Shown here: positions 3,183 to 21,328 of the stretch, piece by piece
Position numbering within the stretch: the stretch's first letter is position 1
Layout of the letters: each line of letters opens with the position of its first letter
Origin: Gammaproteobacteria bacterium
GTDB lineage: Bacteria > Pseudomonadota > Gammaproteobacteria > Steroidobacterales > Steroidobacteraceae
Assembly: GCA_003132025.1 (NCBI GenBank)
Contig: PKWJ01000059.1
Span: 1 to 48,303 of the forward strand
DNA: 48,303 nucleotides
Direction: 5' to 3'
The notes under the pieces: model-generated
Databases searched by the model: none
What the model was told of the DNA's origin: nothing
Seen by the model: the letters and a program-made list of their open reading frames with translations, nothing else
Translations under genes and position numbers: made by a program

Positions 3183-3800
3183 TCAGGCTACGACGTGGAG
3201 GCCCTGGCCGAGCGAGGCGACTCGCGCGCCTTGCTGCTGCAGATGTTGCAGCATGCCCTGGAGCAGACCCTGCAGCGGTGGACTCGACTGCTGGCTCGCT
3301 GCCACACCCGCGGCACTGCCCGCTGCAGGAACGCCGCATGATCCGTTGGTGCTGGTGTTGGCGCCGAGATCAGTCATCAACTTGTTGAAAGTGGCGTTTA
3401 GGTTGGCGACACTGTTACTGGTCGATGAACCGGGAGTAGCGATGGAGTTGGCGCTGCCATCCAACGTATCGATCAGTGACTCGAATTTGCCGCGCGCACC
3501 GCCATGATGAGAGCCGTGCCCATGCGGCACGCTGCCGGGGCTGGCGGCACCGGCGGCACCGGCGGCGGCGCCAGTCTGCGTAGCCGATGGTTGGTTCGAC
3601 ACCAGGGCCTGTTGCAACGACTGGGTAAAACTCTGCAGGTCCTGGGCAATCTGGGAGCGGCTGCTGGCGGCTGCGGACGCGGTGCCGGGCGAGGTACCGC
3701 CAGGCGCTGTAAGTGCGTTCGGCACCAGCGCTCGCGGCGCGCCTAGTGCTGAAATCTGATTGGCCCAGAAGCTGGCATTACTGATCGATGCATTTTGCAT
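3183..3800 (-). CDS. Ala/Gly/Ser/Gln-rich low-complexity protein of unknown function
   Basis: This 205-residue protein starts MQNASISNASFWANQ and has no cleavable signal or membrane segment. It is built of short amphipathic helices separated by Ala/Gly/Ser/Pro linkers. One helix, near residues 50-67, is SQIAQDLQSFTQSLQQAL. A His-rich patch (HGHGSHH) lies in the middle, a second helix block is VANLNATFNKLMTDLG, and a C-terminal block is LQGLLQGMLQHLQQQG. The pattern of paired 'LQxxLQxLxxxL' helices resembles uncharacterised proteobacterial proteins often found as single genes, but I cannot assign a function. The reading frame shows the GC-rich third positions of a real gene. It stands alone, between an enzyme gene and an outer-membrane protein gene, all on the minus strand. 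Confidence 0.6.
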   Translation of the reverse strand: MQNASISNASFWANQISALGAPRALVPNALTAPGGTSPGTASAAASSRSQIAQDLQSFTQSLQQALVSNQPSATQTGAAAGAAGAASPGSVPHGHGSHHGGARGKFESLIDTLDGSANSIATPGSSTSNSVANLNATFNKLMTDLGANTSTNGSCGVPAAGSAAGVAASQQSSPPLQGLLQGMLQHLQQQGARVASLGQGLHVVA

Positions 3801-10737: not shown

Positions 10738-12279
10738 GTGATCGACCTCGATGTGGTGGGACTGTCGCGCCTGCAGTTCGCCCTGACTGCGCTCTACCAC
10801 TTCCTGTTCGTTCCCCTCACCATCGGCCTGTCCATGATCCTGGTGATCATGGAATCCGTCTACGTCATGACCGGCCGCGAGGTGTGGCAGCGCATGACGA
10901 AATTCTGGGGCCTGCTGTTCGGCATCAATTTCGCCATGGGTGTGGCCACCGGAATCACCATGGAGTTCCAGTTCGGCACCAACTGGGCCTATTACTCGCA
11001 CTACGTCGGCGACATCTTCGGCGCCCCCCTGGCGATTGAAGGATTGATGGCCTTCTTTCTCGAGTCGACCTTCGTCGGCCTGTTCTTCTTCGGCTGGGAC
11101 CGGCTGTCGAAGATCGGGCACCTGGTCGTGACCGCACTGGTGGCACTGGGTTCGAGCCTGTCGGCACTGTGGATACTGATCGCCAACGCCTGGATGCAAA
11201 ATCCAATCGGCGCGCGTTTCAACTACCAGACCATGCGCATGGAACTGTCCTCGTTCAGCCACGTGCTGTTCAATCCGGTCGCGCAGGCGAAATTTGTGCA
11301 TACCGTCGCCGCCGGCTACGTGGTCGGCTCGATATTCGTCCTGGCGATCAGCGCCTGGTACCTGCTGCACGGTCGCAATACGCAGGTCGCCAAGCGCTCC
11401 ATGGCCGTGGCCGCGAGTTTCGGGCTGGCCTGTTCGCTCTCCGTGGTCGTGCTGGGCGACGAGTCGGGTTACGTGGCGAGCGAGAACCAGAAGATGAAGA
11501 TCGCCGCCATCGAGGCCGAATGGCGCACCGAGACGCCGCCGGCGGCCTTCACTCTGTTCGGCTTTCCTGACGTGCAGGCGCGCACGACGCACGCGGCGCT
11601 GAAGGTGCCCTGGCTGCTTGGCCTGATCGCCACCCGTTCCATCAATAAGCCGGTCCTCGGCATCTACGACCTGGTGGAGCGCGCCCGCATCCGGATACTC
11701 AGCGGCATTCAGGCGCACTCAGCGCTCCGTTTGTTGCGTGCCAACCCGGCCGACACCGAAGCCAAGGCGCAATTCGAAGCTCACCAGACGGATCTCGGCT
11801 ACGGGCTGCTGTTGCTGCGCTACGTGCAGAACCCGTCGGAGGCAACGCCTGCGCAGATCGACCTGGCCGCGTGGTCGACGGTGCCGAACGTGCCGGTACT
11901 GTTCTGGTGTTTCCGCATCATGGTCGGCATCGGACTGTTCTTCATCCTGCTGTTCGCCGTGGCGATCTATCTATCGACACGTCATCGCTTTGAGCAGACG
12001 CATTGGTTCCTGCGGGTCGCGCTGTGCAGCCTGCCGCTGCCATGGATCGCCGCCGAACTGGGCTGGATTGTCGCTGAATATGGGCGCCAGCCTTGGGCCA
12101 TTGACGGCGTGCTGCCCACATTTCTGGGCGTCTCGACCCGGCCGGCCGGCAATGTGATCGCCTCGCTGACGGGATTCGTGGTGTTCTATTCGGCGCTGGC
12201 TGCGGTCGAGGTGTTCCTGATGGCGCGCATGATCCGCCGCGGGCCCGACGGCCTGGGCTACTGGCCGCCGCAGGTCTGA
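10738..12279 (+). CDS. cydA: cytochrome bd ubiquinol oxidase subunit I
   Basis: The haem-bearing subunit of the inner-membrane quinol:O2 oxidoreductase, which reduces O2 with high affinity and resists sulfide and nitric oxide. The protein has 513 residues. Haem ligands are present: H21 (ALYHFLF), H188 ([11 protein letters not shown]) and M395 (CFRIMVG). The proton-channel acids E101 and E109 lie in [17 protein letters not shown]. The quinol-binding Q loop (about residues 245-380) contains [13 protein letters not shown] and FTLFGFPD and is of the long E. coli type. [12 protein letters not shown] precedes the last helices. The start is GTG 10738. It forms an operon with cydP, cydB (8 bases downstream) and cydX. 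No cydDC assembly exporter is in the window. Confidence 0.97.
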
Positions 12280-12287
12280 GGATCACC

Positions 12288-13424
12288 ATGCCCGATTACG
12301 AAACACTGCGGGTGATCTGGTGGCTGATCCTCGGCACGCTGCTGATCGGCTTTGCAGTCACCGACGGCTTCGATCTGGGCGTGGGCATCATCTTCCGCTT
12401 CGTCGGCCGCACCGATGAGGAGCGCCGCGCGCTGCTGGAATGCATCGAGCCGGTATGGGAGGGCAACCAGGTGTGGTTCATCCTCGCGGGCGGCGCCGTG
12501 TTCGCCGCCTGGCCGCTGCTATACGCGGCGTCGTTCTCCTGCCTCTATCTGGCCATGTTCCTGATTCTGGTCGCGCTGATCCTGCGGCCGGTGGGATTCA
12601 ATTTCCGCAATAAACTGCCGGACCCGCGTTGGCGCAATTTCTGGGACTGGACGCTGCTGGTCGCCGGTGCGCTACCGGCGCTGCTGTTCGGGGTCGCATT
12701 CGGCAATCTGTTCCTCGGGATAGCGTTCCACTTCGACGAGCTGATGCGGCCGGTGTATACCGCCGGCTTTCTCAGCTTGCTGCAGCCATTTGCTCTATTG
12801 GCGGGTGTGGTCAGTCTGTCGATGCTGGTTCTGCACGGAGCAAGCTACGCCGCGCTCAAGGCCGGCGAGCCGATGTCGGCCCGGGCGGCGTCGATCGGCG
12901 GTGCGGCCGCGATCGCCTTCGTCATCGCATTTGCGGCTGCCGGCGCCTGGCTCGCGACCGGGCTGGATGGCCAGACAATCACGTCGGGCGCTGACCCGAT
13001 GGGCGCCTCCAATCCGCTGTTGAAGAGCGTCGTGGTCCTGCGGGGAGCGTGGCTCGGCAACTACCGCGCGCACCAGATACTGTGGTTCGCGCCGGCGGCC
13101 GCGCTGCTCGCGGCCGGGTTCGCCGGGGTAATGCTGCGCATCGGTCGGCCTGGCGCTGCCTTTATATCGAGTGCCCTGGCCGTGAAAGCAACGATTCTCA
13201 CGGCCGGAATCGCGCTGTTTCCGTTTTTGCTGCCCTCCTCCACCGATCCGAGTCAGGGCCTCACCATCTGGGATGCATCCAGCAGCGCCAAGACGCTGTT
13301 CATCATGCTGCTGTGTGTGATCGTGTTGCTGCCGATCGTGCTCGCCTATACGGCGTGGGTGTTCCACGTGCTCAGGGGCCGGATCACCCTCGAGTACATG
13401 CGCAAGCACGGCAGCTGGTACTGA
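12288..13424 (+). CDS. cydB: cytochrome bd ubiquinol oxidase subunit II
   Basis: The structural partner of CydA, 378 residues. The N-terminus [31 protein letters not shown] and [24 protein letters not shown] are diagnostic of CydB. Asp in TDGFDLG (about residue 29) and the following acidic side chains lie near the proton path in known structures. Eight or nine membrane helices can be counted, ending with a short cytoplasmic tail ([11 protein letters not shown]). GAGG ahead of ATG 12288 supports the start. It lies 8 bases after cydA and 21 bases before cydX. The length matches the family. Confidence 0.97.
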
Positions 13425-16781: not shown

Positions 16782-17185
16782 TGATTGACTCCTGAATTGC
16801 GCTGCATCTCCTGGGACAGGGTCTGCGTGCTGTGAATCATCTCGTCATTGACGGCCTGTTCCTTGGTCGCCGATGCCTGCGCGGTCGCGAGCTGCGCGTC
16901 GACGCGCGATTCCTTGGCCAGGCGCTCGGCATCATCCATGCGCTTTTCCTGCACGGCTGTTTCGGCGGCGGCGAGCTTGTCGCGGGCCTCACTCAGTGCC
17001 GGTGAGGCGGCATCGGCGACCCGCGCCTGATCGGCGGCGGCAATGGCCTGCTTGGCCGAGCTCAACGCGACCGCTGGGACCGGAGGCGTGGAGGCACAGG
17101 CCGCGAGCAGCAGTACGCCCCCGAAGCCGAGCAGTGTGGCCGCAGCGGCATGCGGGCGGCGCGTGTTAACAAAAATCCGGGTCAT
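16778..17185 (-). CDS. DUF4398 lipoprotein
   Basis: A 135-residue envelope lipoprotein. A basic start (MTRIFVNTRRPH) leads to a hydrophobic segment and lipobox LLAAC. Mature helices are rich in Ala, Lys, Glu and Asp: LSSAKQAIAAADQARVADAA, then LSEARDKLAAAETAVQEK, then DDAERLAKESRVDAQLATAQ, the DUF4398 pattern. The function of the domain is unknown; these proteins typically occur beside OmpA-like lipoproteins with the same domain, as here. ATG 17185 is preceded by AGGAG at eight bases, which fixes the start; a longer frame to 17485 has no signal sequence at its beginning. The TGA overlaps the next gene's ATG, making a coupled two-gene unit. Confidence 0.85.
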   Translation of the reverse strand: MTRIFVNTRRPHAAAATLLGFGGVLLLAACASTPPVPAVALSSAKQAIAAADQARVADAASPALSEARDKLAAAETAVQEKRMDDAERLAKESRVDAQLATAQASATKEQAVNDEMIHSTQTLSQEMQRNSGVNQ

Positions 17186-17491
17186 CTTGGCTTCTCCTAA
17201 GCGTAGATCGTGGCCGTCCGGTGGAGGGCGGAGCCGCGATTGGGCAGCGAGTCTGGCCCGAAACGGGCCGCTGGTCGGTGCGCTGGCGTACTGAGTGCGC
17301 CGATGGCAGGACGGGGCACCAGCCGAGCCAGGAACGCGGCCCACAGGATCCTGGCAGTATGCATTTTCATGTGGGAAATCAGCAGCATCGGCGGGTGGCA
17401 GCACTGCAATGCGTGCCACATTGCTATAGACTCCCGCGGCTGATATCAGCGCACGACAGGCTTTGCGCCGTGGCATAACGCGCAACAGTTA
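17186..17491. other. divergent intergenic region, no gene
   Basis: About 305 bases separate the DUF4398 lipoprotein gene (minus) from the copper-linked ABC operon (plus), so it should hold promoters in both directions. No coding frame with a ribosome site is seen. It contains the inverted repeat GTGGCA (17395-17400) / TGCCAC (17414-17419) and the palindrome described separately at 17439-17450. Confidence 0.5.
17421..17450 (+). promoter_or_regulatory. possible promoter with overlapping 12-bp palindrome for the ABC/SCO operon
   Basis: TTGCTA (17421-17426) and TATCAG (17444-17449) are 17 bases apart, giving a fair sigma-70 layout 43 bases before the first gene. The -10 lies inside GCTGATATCAGC (17439-17450), a perfect 12-bp palindrome. 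That would suit a repressor or activator operator. Both assignments are pattern-based inference. Confidence 0.35.
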
Positions 17492-18547
17492 ATGAGTACT
17501 GACACGGAAAAACCGCGCTCCAAGCACTTCCTGCGCCGCAGGCAGGTGCTGCAGGCAAGCATCGCCGCCGCTGTGCCTGGCGGCTTGCTGTCGTGCTCCG
17601 GGCAGTCGCGAGGCGATGCGCTCATCGTTGGTGGCCTGCCCGTGACCTGCAATCTGACGCTGCCGATCGCGTGCGTCGCCCGAGCGGCCGCCAACGCTGC
17701 CAGCCCCGGCGCCGCGCCGCGCTTCGAGTACGAATACAGCAAGTACAACGGCTGGCCCGAGGTCAAGGAATCGCTGATGGCGGGGCGGATCCAGGCCGCC
17801 TACATGCTGGCGCCGCTGGTCATGGACCTGGCCGACCGGGGCATACCGCTCAAGATTGTTTCACTGGGTCATCGTTCGGGCGCCGTGATCATGGTGCGCG
17901 CCGATTCCTCATACCTGAACTTCAGGCAGCTGGCCGGCAAACTCATCGCCATCCCCAGTCGCTTCGCGGTCGATTATCTGTTCCTGCGCAAAATGCTGGC
18001 GGCGGAAGGCATGACACCCAAGGACGTGCAGATCGTGGAGATGGCGCCGCCCGACATGCCGGCCGCGCTGTACGCGCGCGCGGTGGATGCCTACTGCACC
18101 GGCGAGCCGTTCGGGGCCTCCGCGCAGCGCGCCGGCTATGCACGTGTGCTGCGCATGACCCGTGACGAATGGCGCAATTATATCTGCTGCGTACTGACGG
18201 TACGCGAGGAACTGATCACGCACAACAGCGCTCTGGTGCAGGATCTGGTCGACCATGTGCTCGGAGCGGGCGTGTGGCTGGACGCGAAACTGGAGAACCG
18301 CAACAAGGCCGTGGCCATCGCCGCCGGCGAGAAATTCTTCAATCAGGATCCCAACATCATCCAGTTCGTGATGGATAATCCCACCGACCGGGTAACCTAC
18401 GGCGACCTGCGCATGATCAGAGCGGAGTTCGAAGACCTGATGCAGCTGTCGCTGGATGCCGGCACCATCAAGCATCCGATCGCATACGAGGCGTATGTGG
18501 ACGAGCGCTTTGCCAGGATCGCCAAGCCGGCGGCGATTGCACTGTAG
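17492..18547 (+). CDS. ABC importer substrate-binding protein (NrtA/SsuA-like), Tat-type lipoprotein signal
   Basis: A 351-residue binding protein. The N-terminus RRRQVLQASIAAAVPGGLLSC combines a twin-arginine-like motif with a lipobox Cys (about residue 35), suggesting export folded and anchoring to a membrane. The body follows the nitrate/sulfonate/thiamine-precursor type: LIVGGLPVTCNLTLPIACVA at the first strand, GRIQAAYMLAPLVMDLADRG, LAGKLIAIPSRFAVDYLFLR, and VDAYCTGEPFGASAQRAGYA lining the ligand cleft. Several cysteines (CNLTLPIAC, YICC) lie near the predicted cleft, which is unusual for NrtA or SsuA. It is the first gene of a five-gene operon with SCO, cupredoxin, permease and ATPase genes. 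The ligand is unknown; nitrate or sulfonate cannot be assumed because no assimilation enzymes are nearby. Confidence 0.85.
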   Translation: MSTDTEKPRSKHFLRRRQVLQASIAAAVPGGLLSCSGQSRGDALIVGGLPVTCNLTLPIACVARAAANAASPGAAPRFEYEYSKYNGWPEVKESLMAGRIQAAYMLAPLVMDLADRGIPLKIVSLGHRSGAVIMVRADSSYLNFRQLAGKLIAIPSRFAVDYLFLRKMLAAEGMTPKDVQIVEMAPPDMPAALYARAVDAYCTGEPFGASAQRAGYARVLRMTRDEWRNYICCVLTVREELITHNSALVQDLVDHVLGAGVWLDAKLENRNKAVAIAAGEKFFNQDPNIIQFVMDNPTDRVTYGDLRMIRAEFEDLMQLSLDAGTIKHPIAYEAYVDERFARIAKPAAIAL

Positions 18548-18562
18548 ATCAGGAGACCAGGC

Positions 18563-19144
18563 GTGACTCGCGCACTCATTGCATTGCTGACGCTGGTTTT
18601 TTGTAGCGCTACCATCAGCGCCGCGGGCGATACCAACCTCATTGCCGGAGTTTTCAGCCCCGCGCGGCTGGCGCCTGACTTCTCGCTGCGCGGCTCCGAC
18701 GGCAGCGAACTTACGCTCAGCCGCTACCGGGGCAAGGTGGTCGCGCTCGCCTTCGGCTACACCTCTTGTACGGCGGTGTGCCCGATCACCCTGGGCGTGC
18801 TGGCCGCGGCACGCAGGAAGCTCGATACGGCGGCAGATCAGGTGCAGATCATCTACGTCACCGTGGATCCGGAGCGCGACAACGCCGAGCGCATGCGCAA
18901 GTTCCTGCAAGGCTTTGATACCAGCTTTGTCGGCGGCACCGGCACCGAGCAGCAGCTGTCCGCGGTACGCGCGGACTATGGAATCACGGTGAGCAAAAAG
19001 ATCCCGATCCCCGGCGGTTACGCGTTGAATCATTCGTCATACATCTACCTGATCGATCGGAACGGCGGTCTGCGCGCTCTGATGCCCTACGGCCACAGCG
19101 CCGACGATTTCGCGCACGACATGCGCATCCTGTTGAACGACTAG
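18563..19144 (+). CDS. SCO1/SenC-family copper protein
   Basis: A 193-residue exported thioredoxin-fold protein. A signal peptide or anchor (ALIALLTLVFCSATISA) precedes the SCO fold APDFSLRGSDGSELTLSRYR. The copper ligands are all present: C69 and C73 in YTSCTAVCP and H157 in YALNHSSYIYLID. VTVDPERDN is the family's conserved loop. SCO proteins insert copper into CuA sites of cytochrome oxidase or other cuproenzymes, or act as thiol oxidoreductases. No cytochrome c oxidase gene is nearby. The start is GTG 18563 with AGGAG ahead, 15 bases after the substrate-binding protein. Lying between the binding protein and the permease of one importer, it is probably functionally tied to transport or to an enzyme that uses the imported ligand. 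Confidence 0.9.
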   Translation: MTRALIALLTLVFCSATISAAGDTNLIAGVFSPARLAPDFSLRGSDGSELTLSRYRGKVVALAFGYTSCTAVCPITLGVLAAARRKLDTAADQVQIIYVTVDPERDNAERMRKFLQGFDTSFVGGTGTEQQLSAVRADYGITVSKKIPIPGGYALNHSSYIYLIDRNGGLRALMPYGHSADDFAHDMRILLND

Positions 19145-19153
19145 CCGCGGCCC

Positions 19154-19564
19154 GTGAGATACACCCGCTGGTTGGCCATCCTGCTGCTCGCGACCGTCGT
19201 CAGCGCGACCGCCTGGGCGGCGCTGTCCCCCGTCAGGTCGGCATCGCACGAGGTCATCTTCGAGATTCCGAAGGGCACCTGGGCGCGCCGCATGGCGGGC
19301 AATAAAGTGGAAATCCTGCCGTCCCGGATTCGCCTGACGCTCGGGATCAGGGATGTTCTGGTGCTGAAGAACATGGACGACGTACCGCAGGCATTTGGGC
19401 CCGTCCTGATGATGCCCGGCCAGAGCTTTCGGCTGCCCTTCGCGGTCGCCTCCGACTACCAGTTCGCCTGCACCGCACACGCCAGCGGGCAGATGACCAT
19501 CATTGTCGAGCCGAAACCGGAATCCGCCTGGGCCAGGGTGTGGTGGCGGTTGCGATCTCTCTGA
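19154..19564 (+). CDS. cupredoxin-like exported protein with an incomplete type-1 copper site
   Basis: A 136-residue protein with a signal peptide or anchor (RWLAILLLATVVSATAWA). It has one Greek-key cupredoxin domain. The C-terminal ligand loop is C106-x2-H109-x4-M114 (FACTAHASGQMTI), matching the Cys-His-Met half of a blue-copper site. The first histidine, expected after NxDD in the loop NMDDVPQAFGP, is replaced by Q79, so the mononuclear site is altered; glutamine can act as an axial ligand in some cupredoxins. The start is GTG 19154, 9 bases after the SCO gene, and the permease follows 9 bases on. It could hand copper to SCO or receive it, or carry electrons in the periplasm. The role is inferred from context only. 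Confidence 0.8.
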   Translation: MRYTRWLAILLLATVVSATAWAALSPVRSASHEVIFEIPKGTWARRMAGNKVEILPSRIRLTLGIRDVLVLKNMDDVPQAFGPVLMMPGQSFRLPFAVASDYQFACTAHASGQMTIIVEPKPESAWARVWWRLRSL

Positions 19565-19573
19565 GGAACACCG

Positions 19574-20332
19574 ATGTCGAAATTGCAGCTGGTACTTCCC
19601 TCGCTGGCGGTGATCGCCGTACTGCTGACTGTGTGGTGGCTCGCGGTGGTGCTGACCGGCAGCGCGATCTTTCCAACGCCCTGGCAGGTGGTCACCGGTA
19701 CGCTGGAACTGGCCCGTGAGGGTACGCTGTGGGATGACATCGGCGCCTCGCTGATGCGGGTCGCCACCGGGTTCCTGCTCGCCGTCAGCATTGCCGTGCC
19801 GCTCGGTCTGTGGATGGGCTGGGTGAAGGGCGCGTTTTCCACGCTCAATCCGCTGTTTCAGATGCTGCGCCCGATTTCCCCGATCGCCTGGATACCGATC
19901 GCCATTCTGTGGTTTGGCGTCGGCAATGAATCGCCGATATTTCTGATATTCATCTCGTCGGTATTTCCGATGGTGGTACAGACCACGGCCGGAGTGCACA
20001 CCATCGAGCGCCGCTACCTGCGCGCGGCCGAGAATTTTGGCGTCTCGCGCTACACGCTGTTTCGCCGCGTCATCATTCCGGCGGTGCTGCCGCAGATCAT
20101 CGTCGGCATGCGCATCGGGCTTGGCGTGGCGTGGCTGGTGGTAGTCGCGGCGGAAATGATTGCGCTTCGATCCGGTCTTGGCTACCTGATCATCGACTCG
20201 CGCAATGCCGGCAATCGCTACGACCTGGTGATCGGTGGCATGGTGATCATCGGGATCATCGGTCTGTCGCTCGATGGCATGATGCGGCTGCTGGAAGGGC
20301 TACGGACGGTGCGGTGGCGCTATGCCCACTAA
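19574..20332 (+). CDS. ABC importer permease (NrtB/SsuC/TauC family)
   Basis: A 252-residue inner-membrane permease with six predicted helices. The cytoplasmic coupling motif EAA...G is AAENFGVSRYTLFRRVIIP (about residues 150-170), which docks to the ATPase. ISPIAWIPIAILWFGVGNESP and VGMRIGLGVAWLVVVAAEMI are typical of the nitrate/sulfonate/taurine permease branch. The start ATG 19574 has GAGGAA shortly ahead. The gene overlaps the ATPase gene by 11 bases. It is the membrane pore of the importer whose binding protein is at 17492. Confidence 0.93.
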   Translation: MSKLQLVLPSLAVIAVLLTVWWLAVVLTGSAIFPTPWQVVTGTLELAREGTLWDDIGASLMRVATGFLLAVSIAVPLGLWMGWVKGAFSTLNPLFQMLRPISPIAWIPIAILWFGVGNESPIFLIFISSVFPMVVQTTAGVHTIERRYLRAAENFGVSRYTLFRRVIIPAVLPQIIVGMRIGLGVAWLVVVAAEMIALRSGLGYLIIDSRNAGNRYDLVIGGMVIIGIIGLSLDGMMRLLEGLRTVRWRYAH

Positions 20333-21062
20333 GATCGCGGTGAAGGACCTGAGGAAAGGCTTTCCGACCGAGCAGGGACACCTGCCGGTCATCGATGACG
20401 TCAGCTTCGAGGTAGCCGACGGGGAATTCGTCGCCATCGTCGGCCCCTCCGGTTGCGGCAAATCAACGCTGTTGAACGTCATCGCCGGCTTTGATCCTCC
20501 CGACCGCGGTTCCGTCACCGTCGATGGCAGCCTGGCAACCGGCCCAAGCTCCAAGCGCATTCTGATGCCCCAGCAGGGTTCGGTTTTCCCGTGGCTGACG
20601 GTGCAGCAGAACCTGATGTTTGGACTCAATGGTCATGCGCCGGGCAATCGAGAACAGATCGCGGACCACTATGCGGCCATCGTGGGTCTGAAGGGCTTTG
20701 AGATGAGCTATCCGCATGAGCTGTCGGGCGGCATGCTCAAGCGCGCCGAACTGGCGCGGGCACTGGTGGTGAAGCCTGAGGTTCTCTATATGGATGAGCC
20801 GTTCTCGGCGCTGGACGCGTTAATGAGCCTGCGCATGCGCAAGGAGCTGCTGCGAATCCTGGCCGAGGAGCGCCATACCGTGGTGCTGGTGACCCACGAC
20901 GTGGAAGAGGCGATTCACCTGGCCGACCGGATCCTGGTGCTGTCGGCGCGACCGACCCGGATCCAGATGTCGTTCGAGGTGCCGTTTGCACACCCGCGCA
21001 CACTGTCGAGCCCCGCGGCGCAGGGCCTGAAGGAAGCCGTGCTGCGCGAACTGGGGGTATAG
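20322..21062 (+). CDS. ABC importer ATPase (NrtD/SsuB/TauB family)
   Basis: A 246-residue nucleotide-binding protein. Walker A is GPSGCGKST, the Q-loop lies in LMPQQGSVFPW, the signature is LSGGMLKRAELARAL, Walker B is VLYMDEPFSALD, and the switch His is in VLVTHDVEEA. The signature starts LSGGM rather than the more usual LSGGQ, which is common in this branch. It drives uptake through the permease with which it overlaps by 11 bases. It closes the five-gene operon; tRNA-Ala lies 17 bases beyond its stop on the opposite strand, so read-through would be antisense to that tRNA. Confidence 0.95.
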   Translation: MPTKIAVKDLRKGFPTEQGHLPVIDDVSFEVADGEFVAIVGPSGCGKSTLLNVIAGFDPPDRGSVTVDGSLATGPSSKRILMPQQGSVFPWLTVQQNLMFGLNGHAPGNREQIADHYAAIVGLKGFEMSYPHELSGGMLKRAELARALVVKPEVLYMDEPFSALDALMSLRMRKELLRILAEERHTVVLVTHDVEEAIHLADRILVLSARPTRIQMSFEVPFAHPRTLSSPAAQGLKEAVLRELGV

Positions 21063-21079
21063 AAGGCCCGCGGATCGAT

Positions 21080-21155
<76 letters not shown>

Positions 21156-21328
21156 ACGAGGCGCGCGATTCTAGCATCCGGTGGCAACGCCGCAAGTCGA
21201 TGGCCAGGCCGCGCAGCCATGCTCCGCGGTCGGAGGAATCTGACGGCGAGCCGAGGCATGCGCGTATATGGCGGCGCTGGCGCCCTGCTTCATGCTAGCC
21301 GGCAGCGGTAGTCACTCGAGGTCGCGAT

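Follow-up and report, generated by a model that had tools for sequence, protein, structure and literature searches.

A five-gene operon that joins an ABC importer of the nitrate/sulfonate/taurine class with a SCO protein and a cupredoxin, and its possible role in copper import

Introduction

The stretch of DNA analysed here (the window) covers 48,303 nucleotides of a gammaproteobacterium of the Steroidobacteraceae (assembly GCA_003132025.1, contig PKWJ01000059.1, positions 1 to 48,303 of the forward strand). It carries a plus-strand run of five genes at 17492-21062, encoding in this order a substrate-binding protein (SBP), a SCO protein, a cupredoxin, a permease and an ATPase. Three of these are the parts of an ATP-binding cassette (ABC) importer and two are copper proteins, and the question arises whether the copper genes belong to the importer and what the importer carries. 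Intergenic distances amount to 15, 9 and 9 bases for the first four genes, and the permease and ATPase genes overlap by 11 bases; strand, order, gaps and overlap had been given in a first-pass annotation of the same DNA, and the open reading frame listing of the window agreed with it exactly.

The linkage of the five genes is strongly supported. As to the cargo, import of copper or of a copper complex, fed by a periplasmic copper relay, is the favoured reading, with a probability of roughly 0.4, since the two copper proteins, an invariant cysteine in the SBP and the retention of copper ligands in cupredoxins linked to the operon all fit it.

Conservation and distribution of the five genes

A scan for the SBP with one genome per species identified 87 relatives, of which 80 were kept. 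As the scan matches short peptides, it finds close relatives, and 87 is therefore a lower bound. All five genes were present in identical order and on the same strand at 73 of the 80 related loci, and the remaining seven (L035, L039, L051, L052, L057, L060 and L064) are truncated, their contigs stopping within the remainder of the operon or shortly before it. The genome search for this gene order had been proposed at first pass, together with the view that the copper genes are probably no accidental neighbours of the importer. This view held: SCO and cupredoxin genes were found at 73 of the 73 loci with a contig spanning the region. In one of these (L034), the SCO frame is broken and a gene of outer-membrane porin type (Alginate_exp) lies between cupredoxin and permease. 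The operon occurs in Burkholderiales, Steroidobacter, Cellvibrio and metagenome-assembled genomes (MAGs) labelled Acidobacteria and Polyangiaceae.

No flanking gene was conserved across genera around the related loci, where neighbours were named largely by eye from rough gene calls that missed some genes. As the flanks vary while the five genes stay together, the latter form a conserved unit. An association by chance of neighbours with separate functions would find some support in a cupredoxin relative that persists without the SBP in 14 genomes of one family, described below, but the order is kept in 73 of 73 untruncated loci, in distant taxa and with changing flanks. Such an explanation is highly improbable, and in our view it is already refuted by the conserved gene order. 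A regular lack of SCO and cupredoxin genes in homologous operons, named at first pass as evidence that would speak against a functional link, was not found in the close family, whereas more distant importers (L147 and L149-L153, with 27-37% SBP identity) do lack both.

The distribution of the operon is sparse and patchy, with its genes inherited as a whole. A cupredoxin profile was positive in 12 of 98 relatives, window genome included, when up to 40 candidates per genome were scored, and the same 12 carry a strong SCO match of at least 195 bits, the next SCO match reaching 111 bits. In a sample of 369 genomes of the class (up to five candidates per genome scored), a full-strength SBP was found in the window's genome only; the next-best SBP match, at 237 bits, comes from an importer without SCO or cupredoxin (L118, extended as L147). 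Phylum-wide, with up to 10 candidates per genome scored, the cupredoxin profile matched at least two of 398 genomes, which is a lower bound, namely the window's own and that of G391, which holds a degenerate copy.

Pairwise evolutionary distances computed for each of the five proteins are correlated with each other (r 0.70-0.79; 71 rows, L034 left out), as expected under common inheritance. Mean column identity amounts to 83% for the permease, 80% for the SBP, 79% for the ATPase, 71% for the cupredoxin and 64% for the SCO protein. Spread by plasmids was considered and rejected, as the plasmid matches of SBP, SCO and permease were all below 60% identity and the cupredoxin had no match among 72,556 plasmid records.

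Copper proteins and substrate-binding protein

The SCO protein reaches 124 bits against PF02630 (cut-off 22.8) and has the CxxxC motif and the distal histidine of this family. Its copper ligands C69, C73 and H157, already noticed at first pass, are indeed present; among 79 aligned sequences, the two cysteines are kept in 78 each and the histidine in all. Among solved structures, chains of Blr1131 (4wbj, 4txo) are the nearest; Blr1131 is ScoI, a chaperone that loads the CuA site. With SCO1/SenC chaperones of the Blr1131 type, the operon protein shares the CxxxC and histidine ligands and the PF02630 domain, but it is encoded within an importer operon and not beside an oxidase.

This kinship would be consistent with a module that delivers copper to a cuproenzyme of the periplasm, such as the CuA site of an oxidase, to which the ABC part would supply another maturation component, as NosDFY does for NosZ. 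CoxB is nearly universal in the relatives (94 of 98 matched, of which 90 over the cut-off; 11 of 12 operon genomes and 83 of the 86 others), and NirK over the cut-off is at most slightly commoner with the operon (3/12 versus 7/86). However, the patchy occurrence of the operon (12 of 98) does not follow that of CoxB, and, unlike NosDFY, the ABC part has an SBP and is built as an importer. Nitrous oxide reductase maturation itself was rejected, as NosZ exceeded the cut-off in none of the 12 operon genomes (3 of the 86 others). CcoN was over the cut-off in 7 of 12 operon genomes and 42 of 86 others, and PCuAC was found in 7 of 12 and 61 of 86. Altogether, delivery to a cuproenzyme is an unlikely function of the operon.

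The cupredoxin is barely detected by Pfam (Copper-bind PF00127, E 0.026, 15.4 bits, below the cut-off of 21.2), and its assignment is based on the AlphaFold2 (AF2) model and on Foldseek. In the model, which has a predicted local distance difference test score (pLDDT) of 93.9, a cupredoxin barrel is flanked by helices at the N-terminus (2-24) and the C-terminus (125-135). The best 50 of 788 Foldseek matches at E<=10 were all cupredoxin-fold copper proteins or domains, with E values down to 1.1e-5, and included amicyanin, purple cupredoxin and CuA domains. In its fold the protein agrees with the type 1 (blue) copper proteins. It shares with amicyanin and plastocyanin the fold and the copper loop C-x2-H-x4-M, which was aligned to amicyanin and in which C106 and H109 are kept in 78 of 78 sequences and M114 in 75. 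In contrast to these proteins, it has a membrane anchor, a C-terminal helix and a conserved glutamine for the first histidine, so that Cys, His and Met of the type 1 His-Cys-His-Met set are present and the set is incomplete. Position 79, the putative place of the first histidine in blue-copper proteins, holds Gln in 77 of 78 sequences and His in one; this place was assigned from the amicyanin spacing N-x4-P-(H/Q). The glutamine suggests a three-ligand site that probably serves as a weak carrier of Cu(I) and not as an ordinary blue copper site for electron transfer.

All 81 SBP sequences have a twin-arginine pair among their first 45 residues; NrtA, too, has a twin-arginine signal. Cys53, His127, Cys202, Cys232 and Cys233 are likewise invariant (81/81). 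The last four are each common to some outsiders and thus not special to the operon. At the place of Cys53, located by alignment and secondary structure, nine outsiders have Cys (L147, the nearest sister), His (a relative from R. albus) and Asp, Ser or Thr (the other seven), so that among the relatives compared only the nearest have Cys or His there. The nearest solved fold is 3un6 from S. aureus, with zinc bound according to its title, and a histidine of 3un6 aligns with Cys53.

Cupredoxin copies outside the operon

Further evidence comes from the family of G391, in which the cupredoxin profile matched 34 of 195 genomes (up to 20 candidates per genome scored). The gene stands beside SBP and SCO genes in 20 of these genomes and alone in 14; for 13 of the 14 the surroundings or the gene were read, and G916 was placed by the absence of the SBP. 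A full-strength SBP was present in six of six operon genomes searched and in none of the 14 genomes holding only an outside cupredoxin, ten of which gave weak SBP matches only (<=69 bits). Operon cupredoxins of this family keep Q79, C106 and H109 in 20 of 20 and M114 in 19 of 20.

Seventeen of 20 outside copies were read, 16 by computed comparison and one by eye, of which 13 are from importer-less genomes and four are second copies in operon genomes. The Cys-His-Met set is missing in 15 of the 17, that is, in 11 of 13 importer-less copies and in all four second copies. This ligand loss outside the operon, together with the missing SBP in the 14 genomes, ties copper binding to the importer. Copper binding may hence serve the importer, and the ligand loss, perhaps one or few events, is the strongest evidence for this.

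Six closely related outside cupredoxins (L198-L203) are under purifying selection, with a median ratio of nonsynonymous to synonymous substitution rates (dN/dS) of 0.16 in 15 pairs, compared with 0.30 for operon cupredoxins and 0.09 for operon SBPs (36 pairs each). Copies of this type are probably copper-free cupredoxins retained for another purpose. The fold can thus be retained without copper, whereas the copper site stays with the operon. By eye, the ligand-losing outside cupredoxins (L197-L210 and L154) were often seen near a gene with a LON domain.

Importer class and cargo

SBP, permease and ATPase all belong to the NitT/TauT class, with 102.4 bits for NMT1_2 (cut-off 24.7), 75.5 bits for BPD_transp_1 (26.4) and 104.2 bits for ABC_tran (25). 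Folds and the NMT1_2 domain are shared with the SsuACB, NrtABC and TauABC importers. However, none of the three proteins reaches the cut-off of any of the NCBIfam models listed (for the ATPase, the best 25 of 200), two copper genes lie inside the operon, and no assimilation enzyme is conserved alongside. The models of the nitrate importer were not reached (ntrB 149.7 of 209.05 bits, ntrCD 194.5 of 291.8). The best NCBIfam matches of permease and, among its best 25 of 200 models, ATPase are components of the selenocysteine-assisted organometallic (SAO) importer, namely SaoP (NF040733, 183.4 bits, cut-off 295) and SaoA (NF040729, 202.3 bits, cut-off 360), while SaoX (NF040735) gave 45.7 of 300 bits. 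In related SAO proteins, selenocysteine residues have been proposed as metal ligands, according to a review (PMC13188914). The SBP gene of the window is open throughout, free of in-frame stops including UGA, and its product lacks the selenocysteine of the UxP motif described in that review. On the comparison with SaoX, SaoP and SaoA, the SAO system was therefore rejected as an identity, being far below the cut-offs and without selenocysteine, and is kept as a cousin.

The class of the three transport proteins leaves room for a different cargo, namely a small organic or sulfur compound, on which or on the SBP the SCO protein and the cupredoxin would act as periplasmic redox partners by thiol-disulfide exchange, electron transfer or repair, copper being the tool. 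This main rival is quite possible. Besides the sulfonate/nitrate/taurine class of SBP, permease and ATPase, neighbouring genes in single lineages point to it. In Duganella and Rugamonas loci (e.g. L082), genes for MsrB, a DsbD/thioredoxin-type protein and MsrA precede the operon on the same strand, which makes this upstream region a methionine-repair neighbourhood. The DsbD type was found in nine loci, as a thioredoxin-domain protein for which Pfam DsbD_TM itself stayed below the cut-off, and the MsrA gene ends 35-48 bases ahead of the SBP gene in the eight loci where it was called. In two loci from MAGs labelled Acidobacteria and Polyangiaceae, a small c-type cytochrome gene (L097, 4050-4421; L110, 13576-13956) starts 8 bases after the end of the ATPase gene or overlaps it; this cytochrome seems to resemble the haem domain of the urate hydroxylase PuuD. 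Among distant relatives, the one from R. albus (28% identity) lies beside cooS and one from Methylocystis (29%) beside OsmC and acyl-CoA dehydrogenase genes. Such lineage-specific neighbours are suggestive, but each of these clues is limited to one lineage or two loci. Moreover, no assimilation enzyme was conserved with the five-gene unit in the flanks of the related loci, and a cupredoxin without the usual first histidine would disfavour fast electron transfer.

For the import of copper or a copper complex, the five genes would form one machine, in which an ABC importer with the fold of the nitrate/sulfonate/taurine class is combined with a periplasmic copper relay. The SCO protein, with its two cysteines and histidine, and the anchored three-ligand cupredoxin would collect copper and hand it over to the SBP exported by the twin-arginine translocation (Tat) pathway. 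The SBP would hold copper, either bare or in a small complex, at a putative site that includes the invariant Cys53 near the cleft, and would deliver it to permease and ATPase for import. A more detailed version, in which the Tat-exported SBP receives Cu(I), or copper in a small complex, from the SCO protein and from the cupredoxin with its incomplete type 1 site, and then feeds the NitT/TauT-type permease, is somewhat less likely.

Several results weigh against copper as the cargo, whose import and binding by the SBP are predictions from sequence. The predicted model of the SBP is of moderate quality only (pLDDT 72.5), and its best NCBIfam match is an aliphatic sulfonate family (TIGR01728 SsuA_fam, 105.5 bits, below the cut-off of 163.5). 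In the permease, no cysteine is conserved at 90% or more. When the 12 operon genomes are compared with 86 operon-free relatives, none of the five families related to copper clearly follows the operon in its occurrence. Palindromes and 8-mers were counted in 81 stretches upstream of the operon, where repeats were common within lineages only and no operator motif common across lineages was found. The outside cupredoxins also give a mixed picture. Nine of the 15 ligand-losing copies have His instead of Gln at place 79, four of the 15 are second copies in genomes still holding the operon, and two of the 17 keep the copper site (L214 and L215, which correspond to L179 and L187). In the cupredoxin tree, the outside copies appear as one poorly supported change, and they may go back to one origin, in which case the ligand losses are not many independent events.

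The two ligand-intact copies look like recent losses of the operon, because L214 still carries a remnant of it. At L214:7283-8213, the cupredoxin gene with intact ligands lies beside a single 128-residue remnant made up of pieces of permease and ATPase, and the SBP was not found in this genome, so that the locus is read as an operon in decay.

Relation to known copper systems

If copper or a copper complex is the cargo, the operon would to our knowledge encode the first ABC-type inner-membrane copper importer with a binding protein in bacteria. It would also offer a clear genetic handle in the cultured genera Duganella, Roseateles, Massilia and Steroidobacter. With a different cargo, copper chemistry would still be built into an importer. 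In either case, the Gln-for-His cupredoxin and its ligand-losing relatives provide a natural test of what this ligand set is for.

The five-gene combination was not found described in the literature searched, which comprised open-licence papers only, so that its absence there is weak evidence. Nor did these papers give a name to an ABC importer that has copper proteins in its own operon, in line with the first-pass remark that no named system has this composition. According to the accessible part of a review (PMC7558416), few bacterial inner-membrane copper importers are characterised. Those listed there are CcoA-type transporters of the major facilitator superfamily and the CopD/YcnJ type, none being an ABC importer with a binding protein, and ABC transporters are mentioned twice, for export and for NosZ maturation.

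The nearest parallels each share a part of the operon. In Thioalkalivibrio, an ABC transporter is encoded beside thiocyanate dehydrogenase (TcDH), and the authors suggest a role in copper acquisition (PMC5328954). As in the operon, ABC genes lie near a copper-protein gene, but that cluster has two permeases, two ATPases, copCD and the TcDH gene, and "SCO1" does not occur in the main text. Identity with the TcDH clusters was rejected on account of the different ABC make-up and the absence of SCO1 from the main texts. No TcDH was named among the 10 window neighbours scanned with Pfam, and no search with a TcDH model was run. A haloarchaeal operon combines cupredoxin and SCO genes with redox partners (thioredoxin and cytochrome c biogenesis proteins) but, as described in the part of the paper available, has no ABC importer (PMC11218638). 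A survey of copper genes in Haloferax reports SCO proteins and, in its accessible part, no such five-gene operon (PMC9240420).

Gene layout and neighbouring genes

The positions of the five genes and of the residues discussed above are compiled in Table 1.

Table 1. Genes of the operon and codons of interest in the window
Feature	Position	Strand	Details
Substrate-binding protein (SBP), NMT1_2/SsuA-NrtA type, twin-arginine signal	17492..18547	+	351 amino acids; Pfam NMT1_2 4.5e-29
SBP Cys53 codon, loop preceding the first helix (GGLPVTCNLTLP)	17648..17650	+	invariant, 81/81
SCO1/SenC copper chaperone / thiol-disulfide protein	18563..19144	+	193 amino acids, GTG start; PF02630 5e-36
SCO CxxxC copper ligands C69 and C73	18767..18781	+	78/79 each
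SCO copper ligand His157 codon	19031..19033	+	79/79
Membrane-anchored cupredoxin	19154..19564	+	136 amino acids, GTG start; AF2 pLDDT 93.9, Foldseek
Cupredoxin Gln79 codon, place of the type 1 first His ligand	19388..19390	+	Gln 77/78, His 1/78
Cupredoxin copper loop C106-x2-H109-x4-M114	19469..19495	+	78, 78 and 75 of 78
ABC importer permease	19574..20332	+	252 amino acids; PF00528 BPD_transp_1 5.6e-21; best NCBIfam SaoP
ABC importer ATPase	20322..21062	+	246 amino acids; PF00005 ABC_tran 1.1e-29; best NCBIfam SaoA

A promoter scan of 17100-21300 gave no sigma-70-like site. Ten neighbours in the window were scanned with Pfam, which identified OmpA, Crp-type, NRAMP and cytochrome bd genes upstream and the alpha-amylase family downstream, none of them evidently related to the operon. 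The first-pass statement that no oxidase is nearby was only partly right: the two subunits (I and II) of a cytochrome bd oxidase are encoded at 10738-13424, 4 kb upstream and with minus-strand genes in between, but this oxidase is of haem type and does not need copper. The NRAMP-type gene follows the cytochrome bd genes on the opposite strand.

At other loci, neighbours were again named by eye. Loci of Steroidobacter type have the operon after a chemotaxis-like cluster. In four gammaproteobacterial genomes (L149, L151, L152 and L153), a distant cousin importer, made up of permease, ATPase and SBP, adjoins CheA-, CheB- and ParA-like genes. The nearest sister importer (L147:3971-5218; 37% SBP identity, TCHLTCP motif) is located between polyketide-synthase-like and thioesterase-like genes. 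Elsewhere in the window, a tRNA-Ala (ggc) at 3526-3615 was called by ARAGORN and not by Rfam at the gathering threshold, and is likely a false call or a relic.

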